In this document: piece by piece, positions 43,893 through 47,079 of the stretch | Position numbering within the stretch: position 1 is the first letter of the stretch | Layout of the letters: each line of letters begins with the position of its first letter | From: Planctomycetaceae bacterium | GTDB lineage: Bacteria; Planctomycetota; Planctomycetia; Planctomycetales; Planctomycetaceae | Length of the DNA: 47,079 nucleotides | NCBI GenBank assembly: GCA_021732845.1 | Contig: JAKFUF010000009.1 | Span: 1 to 47,079 of the forward strand | Direction of reading: 5' to 3' | Translations under genes and position numbers: made by a program | Notes under the pieces: model-generated | The model's database searches: none | What the model saw: only the letters and a program-made list of their open reading frames with translations | What the model was told of the DNA's origin: nothing

Positions 43893-45905
43893 TCAGTCGT
43901 TCACCACCCGAACGCGGCTGGCGTCGTTGGGGAGCTTGAGTTCGACGCCCTGCCGGAGGGCGTTGGGGTCTTCCAACACCTCCCGATTGAGTTCAGCGAT
44001 CTCGTTCCAGCGCGAGGCGCGGCCGAGGTGCTTTTGGGAAATGCTTCCCAGCGTGTCGTCGGGACCGACGCGGTACATGAGTTCTCCATTGGGACCGTTG
44101 AACAGGCCCTGGCCTTCGCTGCTGGTCGTTGGCGGCTCCTCACCGCGAGCCGCGGCGGCGCGACGGGATGTGACTGGTCGCGTGGCGGTGGTGGCTTCGG
44201 CCGGATGCAGATCAATCAATTCGGGATATCGGGCCAGCAGAATTTCCTTGGAGGGTGTCGAAACCTGCATGCCAGGGCGAAGGTTGTGCGGATCGATGGC
44301 CCGGGTGGAATTGTGCCGGGTCAGGGCCTGGAAATAGCGGGCGGTTCCGTACATCTTCCGGGAGATTTTCCAGAAGTTGTCATTCGGTTCAACAACATAC
44401 GTGTCGCCACGGGGACCGGTTTCGGCGCTGGCTTCATGGCCCGGCTCGTCGATCGCGACCGGCGTGCGTGCCTTGGGGGCCGAGGTGGGGGTATGCCGAG
44501 GAGCGATCGGTTCGGGGGCCTCTTCAATCTCGGTTTCGAGTGAAATGCCAGGAGAAGAGGGGCGTTCTGCCACACGCTCGGGCTTGCGACCACCGGGACG
44601 GCGGATTTCTGTTGTGCCGACCGCCCGGCCCTTTTCCACTTCCACCGCTTCAAAGCCATCGTTCATGGTGGCTTCATCGGGATCAACCACGGCGGCCTCA
44701 GCCGGTGTGGGCTCAGCAGCTTCAGGTTCCTCTTCAAGTGATGGCGCGGCAACCCGCTTGACGGGGCCTCGGCCTGTCGCGGGGGTTCGTCCGGCCACAG
44801 GAGCCTTGCGTCCCGCAGGGAAATCCACCCGGGTGACTGGTTCCTCCTCGTAGTCTTCCACATCGGCATGAACCGGTGCCTGGCCGACCATCGGAGGCAA
44901 GCCACGCCGCGGCGGCACGCGCTCGACAATTTCAGTCTCTGGCTCTTCCGTCATCACCGGTGGCTCTTCGGTTTCCGTGGGCCATTCGGGCATCTCAGAG
45001 CTAGCGACCCCTTCTTCGGCGGGTGGTGCTGCTTCCAGCCCCTCTTCAGCGGACGGCAGGACATGTGCCTGATTCCGCAGCGAGGCATTTCGCGCGGGGA
45101 TGCGATGCTCTGGGCGGCGGGATGAGCCGGGCAGGCGGGGAGTCGGCTGAGCCGGCGGTTCTTCGTTCTCGGCCACGGTGTCGAACGGGTTGCCTTCAGC
45201 CTCCGCACTGGCAACTTCAGCGGGGGGAATTCGTGATGGAAGGCGGCTGGGCAGGGGCAAGTGCCCGCCGGGAAGCTCTTCTGTCGGCCCCGATCTTGGC
45301 ATTACCCGTGTAGGAGCTTCCTCCGGCTCACCGTTCACCGGTGGCTCAGACTCGGCGACCTCCGGAGCTTCGGGGGGCTTCTCCGCCCCCTCGTGACCGG
45401 CGACAGGCTTGTCGGCGCCGGCCGGTTCAACTGGCTTCTCCTTCGCTGCATTCTCAGCCGTGGCTGCCGTGGGCTGCATCTTTTGCCAAGCGAGATACCC
45501 GGACGCGCCGACCAGTCCAACAATGCCAAGCAGCAAGACAATGCGGGTCACGTTCATGGAGGGTTGTTCCGAGGGTAGTCCCCAGTCCTTGTCTTTGCGA
45601 GATTTGTCCGCGCCGCGCTTTGCAGCCGCCCGTGGCTCAGCGGATGGGCGCTCGGCGGCGCGATCCTGCGCGGCGGGGCGTTCGTTTGGCTGCGGAGCCG
45701 GCGGACGCGGCGGGACGGGCAGATCGCCGCGTACCGAACTATGGGACGCCACAGGCCCGGCACCGGTCGCCATCGTGACCGGGCCGATGCTGGAGGGCAT
45801 GGTCACCGGAGGCGTGCCGCCGGTCAGGGGACCGTTGGGCACCGGAGACTGGAGGACTCCCCGGCGGGGGTCGGCGGGCGTGGCCAGGTTGTTGGGGTCA
45901 GCCAT
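43893..45905 (-). CDS. Membrane protein with two C-terminal LysM domains
   Basis: A 670-residue protein. A Pro/Ala-rich cytoplasmic N-terminus (1-118) leads to one membrane helix (about 121-139, RIVLLLGIVGLVGASGYLAW). A long Pro/Glu-rich disordered segment of about 350 residues (for example EEPPAQPTPRLPGSSRRPEH) then spans the periplasm. Two LysM domains end the protein: TYVVEPNDNFWKISRKMYGT (about 500-550) and MYRVGPDDTLGSISQKHLGR (about 606-655). LysM binds peptidoglycan or related glycans, so it probably tethers the inner membrane to the wall. The ATG at 45905 lacks a strong ribosome binding site. A terminator follows. No catalytic domain is seen. Confidence 0.88.
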   Translation of the reverse strand: MADPNNLATPADPRRGVLQSPVPNGPLTGGTPPVTMPSSIGPVTMATGAGPVASHSSVRGDLPVPPRPPAPQPNERPAAQDRAAERPSAEPRAAAKRGADKSRKDKDWGLPSEQPSMNVTRIVLLLGIVGLVGASGYLAWQKMQPTAATAENAAKEKPVEPAGADKPVAGHEGAEKPPEAPEVAESEPPVNGEPEEAPTRVMPRSGPTEELPGGHLPLPSRLPSRIPPAEVASAEAEGNPFDTVAENEEPPAQPTPRLPGSSRRPEHRIPARNASLRNQAHVLPSAEEGLEAAPPAEEGVASSEMPEWPTETEEPPVMTEEPETEIVERVPPRRGLPPMVGQAPVHADVEDYEEEPVTRVDFPAGRKAPVAGRTPATGRGPVKRVAAPSLEEEPEAAEPTPAEAAVVDPDEATMNDGFEAVEVEKGRAVGTTEIRRPGGRKPERVAERPSSPGISLETEIEEAPEPIAPRHTPTSAPKARTPVAIDEPGHEASAETGPRGDTYVVEPNDNFWKISRKMYGTARYFQALTRHNSTRAIDPHNLRPGMQVSTPSKEILLARYPELIDLHPAEATTATRPVTSRRAAAARGEEPPTTSSEGQGLFNGPNGELMYRVGPDDTLGSISQKHLGRASRWNEIAELNREVLEDPNALRQGVELKLPNDASRVRVVND

Positions 45906-46262: not shown

Positions 46263-46916
46263 GATCCTCGCTCCCCGGACGGCTTGCGCCGTTCCGCTAA
46301 AATAAAAGCGGCTGGGCGCGAGCGCTCCGGTGAGCCACACGGGTCGGTCCTCGCTCACCGGACGGCTTGCGCCGTTCCGCTAAAATAAAAGCGGCTGGGC
46401 GCGAGCCCTCCGGTGAGCCACGCGGGTCGGTCCTCACTCACCGGACGGCTTGCGCCGTTCCGCTAAAATAAAAACGGCTGGGCGCGAGCCCTCCGGTGAG
46501 CCACACGGGTCGGTCCTCGCTCACCGGACGGCTTGCGCCGTTCCGCTAAAATAAAAGCGGCTGGGCGCGAGCCCCACGGTGAGCCACACGGGTCGGTCCT
46601 CGCTCCGCGGACGGCTTGCGCCGTGCCGCTAAAATAAAAGCGGCTGGGCGCGAGCCCTCCGGTGAGCCACACGGGTCGGTCCTCGCTCACCGGACGGCTT
46701 GCGCCGTTCCGCTAAAATAAAAGCGGCTGGGCGCGAGCGCTCCGGTGAGCCACGCGGGTCGGTCCTCACTCACCGGACGGCTTGCGCCGTTCCGCTAAAA
46801 TAAAAGCGGCTGGGCGCGAGCCCTCCGGTGAGCCACACGGGTCGGTCCTCACTCACCGGACGGCTTGCGCCGTTCCGCTAAAATGCAAGTGGCAGGGCGC
46901 GAGCCCCGGTGAGCCA
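46263..46916. repeat. Tandem array of eight 83-bp units, each a potential cloverleaf
   Basis: Units begin at 46263, 46346, 46429, 46512, 46595, 46678, 46761 and 46844, a constant 83-bp spacing; the first is slightly and the last more diverged. Within a unit: outer stem CTCACCGG with CCGGTGAG; arm 1 ACGGC-TTGC-GCCGT; arm 2 CCGCT-AAAATAAA-AGCGG; arm 3 GGGC-GCGA-GCCC, whose loop is of GNRA type in RNA. A linker CCACACGGGTCGGTCCTCG joins units. Units differ by only a few bases. The unit resembles dispersed planctomycete palindromes, but tandem amplification is notable. The period is not a multiple of three, and there are no varying spacers, so it is neither coding nor CRISPR. Confidence 0.92.
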
Positions 46917-46950: not shown

Positions 46951-46977
46951 GGACGGCCTCGGAAGGCCATCCTACGG
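46951..46977. repeat. Short palindrome GGACGGCCT..AGGCCATCC
   Basis: GGACGGCCTCGGAAGGCCAT followed by CCTACGG, a small hairpin (GGCCT-CGGA-AGGCC) of a kind widespread in planctomycete intergenic DNA. The remaining sequence to 47079 shows no gene. Confidence 0.5.
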
Positions 46978-47079
46978 CTTCGAATGCGACCGGCGCACGT
47001 GGCTGCGCTTTTTCGTTGAGAGGGGCCTCACGCGCCGCTTTCGGGTGCGGTCGCGGGATTGGGCTTTTTGTTGTTTGCG

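Follow-up and report, generated by a model that had tools for sequence, protein, structure and literature searches.

The tandem array at positions 46265-46916 of the window, i.e. the whole 47,079-nt stretch of contig JAKFUF010000009.1 (Planctomycetaceae bacterium, assembly GCA_021732845.1) that was analyzed, is built of repetitive extragenic palindromes (REPs), two of which face each other in every unit. Judged from sequence comparisons, it is very probably a cluster similar to bacterial interspersed mosaic elements (BIMEs), in which non-autonomous, transposase-dependent REPs are arranged head to tail as inverted pairs (REP doublets forming hairpins, REPINs), with a transposase encoded on another contig of the same genome (C215) as the putative partner. 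The array is a known kind of genomic resident and ordinary for its kind, neither a new RNA nor a machine. The original prediction, made from the letters of the window, had described eight perfect-period 83-bp units, each folding into a four-way cloverleaf, and had named a structured RNA, a protein-binding array, a replication or segregation site, or recent amplification of a REP-like element as explanations. The last of these is supported by the genomic copies and the transposase gene: the proposed search for single copies and a REP-associated tyrosine transposase (RAYT) gene was positive, with 286 pattern copies and the HUH-Y1 gene on C215.

Structure of the array

Tandem Repeats Finder delimited the array with a period of 83, 7.9 copies, 94% matches, 0% indels and a score of 1164, and the pairwise identity of units 1-7 is 94.0-98.8%. 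The inner palindromes start at 46271, 46354, 46437, 46520, 46603, 46686, 46769 and 46852. The predicted spacing of exactly 83 bp thus applies to all eight, but the palindrome of the eighth unit has 62 instead of 64 nt, is more diverged, contains the loop AAAATGCA and shows the predicted G-T wobble in arm 2 (AGTGG). The array accordingly comprises seven 83-bp units and a slightly shorter eighth. It is real and far beyond chance, because the units fold with z-scores of -3.9 to -6.6 against dinucleotide shuffles and the 20-nt core pattern CACCGGASGGCTYGCGCCST occurs 286 times in the genome compared to 0 times for the reversed control.

Each unit holds two 26-nt REP monomers in opposite orientation. 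The C-type monomer is CACCGGACGGCTTGCGCCGTnCCGCT (example: 46356-46381, forward strand, CACCGGACGGCTTGCGCCGTTCCGCT), and the G-type monomer has AGGGCTYGCGCCC in its middle (example: 46805-46830, reverse strand, CACCGGAGGGCTCGCGCCCAGCCGCT). On the forward strand, inverted pair 1 (46271-46334) consists of a C-type arm followed by a G-type arm and has one mismatch each in the outer stem and in arm 3, while pair 2 (46354-46417) is a consensus copy. In pair 3 (46437-46500) AACGG replaces AGCGG, which is the one mismatch in arm 2. The outer stem has one mismatch in pair 4 (46520-46583) and two in pair 5 (46603-46666), and arm 3 has one in pair 6 (46686-46749). These are followed by pair 7 (46769-46832) and the diverged pair 8 (46852-46913), which is common to the window and a sister array on contig C73. 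All arms named in the original prediction are present, with the above mismatches in units 1, 3, 4, 5 and 6.

The draft genome (G000) comprises 9.25 Mb in 262 contigs, the window being contig C64, and a run of N lies inside another sister array on contig C87; hence, the unit count of eight may err in either direction. The arrays in the window and on C73 have 272 bp in common at 95.6% identity, covering the last unit and the end of the neighbouring gene. Yet, the C73 array differs in unit number and carries an inserted miniature inverted-repeat transposable element (MITE), which fits change after duplication.

REP monomers and inverted pairs

The monomer hairpin is CGG-A-S-GGC(TYGC)GCC-S-T-n-CCG, a short imperfect palindrome of high copy number with a covarying stem. 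Copies pair up in inverted orientation, with two spacers that alternate, and often follow each other in tandem: for pairs not more than 80 nt apart, the tail-tail spacer was 8 nt in 33 of 43 cases and the head-head spacer 22-24 nt in 55 of 60. The 16 REPs of the window array likewise alternate in orientation and are separated by two alternating spacers; therefore, the array has the build of a BIME or REPIN cluster as defined in the relevant passages of PMC6006769 and PMC8266576.

Alignment A1 contained 67 distinct monomers, after three chance matches had been removed by hand from 70. In most of them CGGA precedes the S-GGC stem. CGG pairs with CCG in 67/67 (the search pattern prescribed CCGG and CCG) and A with T in 43/67. 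A GTGG or GTAG foot was also considered and dropped after counting, i.e. GT[AG]G at the stem foot, the mark of the GTAG superfamily, does not characterize this REP.

Distribution in the genome and in other genomes

The array unit had 99 BLAST matches in its own genome. Besides the core pattern, the pattern CACCGGNNGGCTTGCGCC was found in 260 copies, its reversed form in none. Some copies stand alone, others form inverted pairs or tandem arrays, whose periods are near 80, 83, 119, 139, 310 and 480 bp; the period of 83 bp is one among several. The REPs lie mainly outside of long open reading frames (ORFs). Among 195 REPs scored in the fetched loci, 19 fell within ORFs of ≥ 250 amino acids (AA), compared to 63% of random positions in the same loci, and 72 fell within ORFs of ≥ 150 AA, compared to 76%; the ORFs of this test were determined mechanically and are not annotated genes.

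The core pattern was present in 26 of 397 sampled genomes of the class, the own genome included; within the order, 21 of 170 genomes had the REP pattern. Four stretches on three contigs of the viral_contigs collection contain the REP. One contig labelled viral, L217 (IMGVR_UViG_3300037041_001768), has nine exact matches to the REP pattern in 12.7 kb and is perhaps a misassigned piece of a chromosome. A plasmid origin was also tried and rejected, since neither the first three units (window 46265-46513) nor the protein of the multicopy gene next to the array had a match in PLSDB. The kind of element is known; a description of this particular REP was not found in the literature by title and abstract, where REP sequences as such are not searchable.

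Folding and covariation

All eight units fold better than their dinucleotide shuffles (-43.8 to -53.3 kcal/mol on the forward strand); for unit 1, one of 200 shuffles folded equally well. The minimum-energy structure is one long hairpin in 8/8 units. For the consensus unit, the cloverleaf reaches -35.5 kcal/mol compared to -48.2 kcal/mol for the long hairpin with RNA parameters, and -21.0 compared to -26.1 kcal/mol with DNA parameters. As the preferred fold, the cloverleaf was rejected due to this deficit of about 13 (RNA) or 5 (DNA) kcal/mol, whereas its small arms were kept due to their compensatory changes.

These changes are most evident at the switch pair, the two S positions of the monomer hairpin. 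In 215 own monomers, C-G was counted 129 times, G-C 73 times and other combinations 13 times (202/215 C-G or G-C). Among 57 monomers from other genomes, whose loci include some overlaps, 56 are complementary (C-G 43, G-C 13, other 1), and the next pair outward, which is weaker in the own genome, is A-T in 45, G-C in 10 and G-T in 2. When the S positions were left free in a search of the class, 120 of the 122 rows listed outside G000, up to a maximum number per genome, were complementary (94 C-G, 26 G-C) and two were not. The covariation score of the 67 distinct monomers was 0.143 compared to 0.051 ± 0.009 for shuffled alignments and was reached in 0/500 shuffles, and 3/8 pairs had changes in both partners. 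Scores of this type are inflated by related sequences.

For the 64-nt pairs, alignment A2 comprised 26 C-first sequences out of 49 listed. In the long hairpin, columns 10-55 form no standard pair in 26/26 and columns 21-44 none in 25/26, the mismatches being a fixed C.C and mostly G.G, and the covariation of this hairpin did not exceed that of shuffles (248/500 as high). The proportion of paired cells is 95.6% for the cloverleaf compared to 86.0% for the long hairpin. The cloverleaf shows no covariation of its own among the 26 pairs, because each arm is nearly invariant there. The proposed covariation check was thus positive for the small stem of the monomer, but neither for the long hairpin nor for the cloverleaf as a whole. 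Consequently, the cloverleaf is partly supported by the alignments: its two small arms are probably REP hairpins, while the four-way fold as such is unsupported.

The putative partner transposase

Five Y1_Tnp matches were found in the own genome. One of them, an ORF of 168 AA on contig C215 (L054:2154-2660, reverse strand), stands between two REP clusters and encodes the motifs NHCH and Y----Q (YTVEAQ). Both clusters start with CTCTGGGAAGGGARAATCGCTCACC and finish with GTACGACAAT. Given these common ends and the fact that GTACGACAAT runs into the gene, one cluster appears to be a duplicate of the other. Just past the second cluster, short tandem repeats GCAGAACT / GCTGAACT are located at L054:1400-1490.

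The next closest proteins among the 170 genomes of the order are encoded in G169 (78%) and G140 (69%), and the same REP flanks each of these genes on either side. Thus, the putative cognate gene is flanked by REPs for 3/3 of the closest proteins (G000 C215, G169 C14, G140 C111). In G169, all four exact copies of a 7.5-Mb genome are within about 170 bp of the gene ends; in G140, five of seven copies are on the contig of the gene and within 1.8 kb of it.

The Pfam family Y1_Tnp matched the 168-AA protein with 23 bits in one scan and 22.6 in another (cut-off 23). A profile of 22 homologs matched the solved transposases 2ec2 and 2f4f (E 0.003), which are of the IS200 kind. For this alignment (A3), 22 of 33 transposase loci were used; the omitted loci are one with a stop codon and ten others, most of which have long ends. 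The 33 are distinct loci and include those of the own genome, G169 and G140. All 22 aligned homologs have H87, H89, Y154 and Q159, and the class 3 motifs NHxH and Y----Q are present in 31/33 and 32/33 homologs, respectively. By these motifs the protein fits the class 3 TnpA-REP kind, even though the published consensus is not matched letter by letter.

At 28/33 loci, ≥ 14 nt are common to the upstream and downstream flanks, compared to 16/132 cross-locus controls, some of them with related REPs in common. In some cases the longest string found in both flanks is no palindrome. Other repeats accompany the more distant homologs, several of which have a sister REP, CCGGCGGCTAGCGCC. Several distant class 3-like loci (L120, L122, L131, L135, L140, L164 and others) have two-sided palindromes of their own, e.g. 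CAGCACGACGCGCCAGCGAGTGGTTG or CCGGCGGCTAGCGCCGTGCCGC, and are a ready set for the study of REP/transposase co-evolution.

Proposed mechanism and opposing observations

Each 26-nt REP can fold as single-stranded DNA into the small hairpin, in support of which the inner stem covaries. The HUH-Y1 transposase of C215, probably of class 3 and encoded by a single-copy gene, may recognize and cut the folded strand and thereby spread the REP, as suggested by linkage and by what is known of the family. Slippage or unequal exchange between adjacent copies would then have produced the tandem arrays, as suggested by arrays that differ in period and sister arrays that differ in make-up.

A number of observations weigh against this reading. 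The cutting and movement of the REP and the expression of the transposase are predicted only. The NCBIfam model REP_Tyr_transpos scored 21.6 with a cut-off of 80, the longest string shared by the flanks in G140 is a non-REP repeat, and the canonical GTAG foot is present in only 24/215 own REPs and 11/49 of other genomes. The outer A-T pair is non-standard in 53/215 own and 18/67 aligned copies. Of the 26 REP-bearing genomes, 17 are in the order set, and only 3/17 have a transposase with ≥ 69% identity. This REP was nearby at 0/10 further transposase loci from six REP-bearing genomes and at 0/8 more loci (L149, L155-L160, L164) from such genomes. With 0/18 more distant loci having this REP nearby, the REP and this transposase are not strictly coupled, which could be due to lost or unassembled transposases or to use of the REP by a more distant transposase. 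Any function of the array for the host would be putative.

Pairing of unlike REP subtypes

Of the 89 inverted REPs lying next to each other in own loci, 77 combine a C-type with a G-type monomer, 11 include a mutated monomer and one is like-like. In other genomes, 16/18 inverted pairs are unlike and two alike; in two pairs of G006, the difference is located one pair outward (A-T/G-C compared to C-G/G-C in most). The C.C and G.G mismatches of the long hairpin exist because unlike REPs are paired. Shared ancestry of the arrays explains part of this pattern, and the counts are non-independent events. It is conceivable, though doubtful, that unlike pairing is an enforced rule beyond inheritance, by which two perfect small hairpins would be kept for the transposase while the mismatches would block a perfect long cruciform. 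A precedent for unlike pairing are the BIMEs of E. coli, which combine y with z REPs in the account of PMC8266576. If the rule were true, class 3 systems would be an independent case of the y/z pairing with a testable selective cause. Unlike pairing together with the fixed mismatches gives a specific prediction of what is selected.

Neighbouring genes and alternative explanations

Two genes on the reverse strand enclose the array. The gene at 43893-45905 encodes a protein of 670 AA with a LysM domain, and the array precedes its start by 360 bp. The ORF at 46975-47079, cut off by the contig end, encodes the 35 C-terminal residues of a protein from an expanded family; about 55 bp separate its 3' end from the array. 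When the neighbouring protein of the window served as a query, one relative turned up, in a metagenome-assembled genome labelled Planctomycetota. The expanded family (window 46975-47079; L186-L215) has 66 matches in the own genome, including 19 copies with 74-100% identity to a 410-AA protein. Its sole domain match is a weak one to the helix-turn-helix P22_Cro, below the cut-off. No match at E 1e-10 was found in the other 169 genomes of the order (≤ 10 candidates scored per genome), and PHROGs and NCBIfam yielded nothing for the family. A viral origin was rejected, as none of 379 pattern stretches in viral_contigs is a relative. Upstream regions at L186-L202 contain further palindromic repeats beside the REPs, e.g. 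CGAGTCACGGAGTGACTCG, and downstream regions GATGGCCTTCCGAGGCCGTCCC; several of the upstream regions have a mosaic build, in which REPs recur about every 430 bp.

Of the alternatives, the one that fares best holds that the REP is a module of a larger duplicating unit around this gene family, the array having been carried along with the gene. It would account for the 272 bp shared by C64 and C73, which include the last unit and the gene end, and for a REP at ≤ 500 bp upstream of 16/19 gene copies (74-100% identity), two of the other three hitting a contig end. Moreover, 9/21 family members on contigs C1-C37 (some contig sizes were interpolated) are ≤ 1 kb from a REP, compared to a random mean of 0.8 (maximum 4), or of 1.5 (maximum 7) when the distance to the contig end was kept. 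However, five REP arrays (C12, C87, C5, C130, C215) are on contigs without a listed family member, and the family was found in 1/170 genomes of the order, namely the own (with the above limit of candidates), compared to 21/170 for the REP. We consider this explanation unlikely.

Still less probable is that the unit acts as an RNA in the 3' ends of transcripts, as a terminator, mRNA stabilizer or attenuator, with the array multiplying the effect. The very stable folding of the forward strand, the position of the array just past the 3' end of one gene, and a U-G at pair 15-50 in 22/26 long hairpins, a wobble usable by one strand only, would be in line with such a role. Against it, the pairs of the long hairpin do not covary beyond shuffles, mismatches occur at two positions (in 26/26 and 25/26 copies), and the covariation that was found lies in the small arms, which DNA hairpins need too. 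In Rfam, no family came near its threshold (best 25.7 bits with a gathering score of 78, a microRNA family) and all matches were far below the gathering scores, so the structured RNA of the original prediction was rejected.

With a marginally smaller chance, the array is kept as a protein-binding or chromosome-organizing site (gyrase, nucleoid protein, partition), the high copy number being a by-product. The homogeneity of the units (94-99%) speaks for such a site, but there are many arrays of varied length and period rather than one, and 371/397 sampled genomes of the class have no exact copy of the core pattern. For a single replication or segregation site there was no sign, the element being dispersed in arrays of several sizes and periods.

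An assembly artefact, i.e. a collapsed or falsely expanded repeat, is least probable, as the units differ mutually yet stay in register and the same unit recurs on other contigs, with relatives in other genomes, although the array stops 163 bp short of a contig end, a run of N lies within the C87 array and the draft has 262 contigs.

A MITE inserted in REPs

The MITE mentioned above has a length of 133 bp (L055:3769-3901, contig C73), occurs at 24 other places in G000, and has the ends AGCCTTTTGAAGGTG / CACCTTCAAAAGGTT. Nine of the 25 copies are identical (query included), and a perfect 12-bp direct repeat is present at both ends in 22/25. This repeat is mostly GGGCNNNNGCCC, which derives from a REP arm; in 20/25 copies the 12-mer on the right matches a REP arm exactly. 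The form of the element presumably recalls targets of the IS231/IS4 type. Nothing useful was found in the literature about the target of IS231-like elements. REPs are known as targets of insertion sequences (IS) (PMC1525189). The MITE within REPs and the REP-bordered gene family with its 66 matches are odder by-products than the array.

Comparison with known systems

In Pseudomonas, REPINs consist of two inverted REPs which are able to form one hairpin and are associated with RAYTs, and the inverted pairs described here, nearly always of unlike subtypes, are similar. The GTAG/CGTC-tagged REP superfamilies, which PMC3733652 reports also in Planctomycetes, likewise are high-copy palindromes with tail-tail and head-head dimers, tandem clusters and flanking DNA of variable length. 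The present REP differs from the GTAG superfamily by the low frequency of the GTAG foot counted above.

The BIMEs of E. coli, with REPs y, z1 and z2 and TnpA-REP, resemble the array in their inverted pairs and frequent consecutive tandem copies, in combining two REP subtypes per BIME and in their irregular stem (PMC8266576). In contrast to them, most copies here have no GTAG foot, the transposase belongs to another class and the sequence is unrelated.

Another close system is the class 3 TnpA-Y1 with flanking 'atypical' REP-like structures, a class found principally in Planctomycetes, Acidobacteria and Proteobacteria according to the class 3 passages of PMC6006769. Its consensus YV[VI][AENY]EQ and NHVH differs from YTVEAQ and NHCH here, and long tandem arrays as found here do not appear in those passages. 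Its 5' foot is given as CnGA, for which the CGGA at the small hairpin here is a candidate. Shared features are NHxH, Y----Q and W followed by T or A in most homologs, the length (178 AA in the paper, 168 AA here) and gene-flanking hairpins which recur in high copy (PMC6006769). In 2018, the single-strand transposases of class 3 were left as a small group of uncertain behaviour, possibly an IS/REP intermediate (PMC6006769, same passages). With a gene of this kind standing amid clusters of its own REP, and linked alike in two other genera, the genome offers a defined REP plus partner protein that can be tested in vitro.
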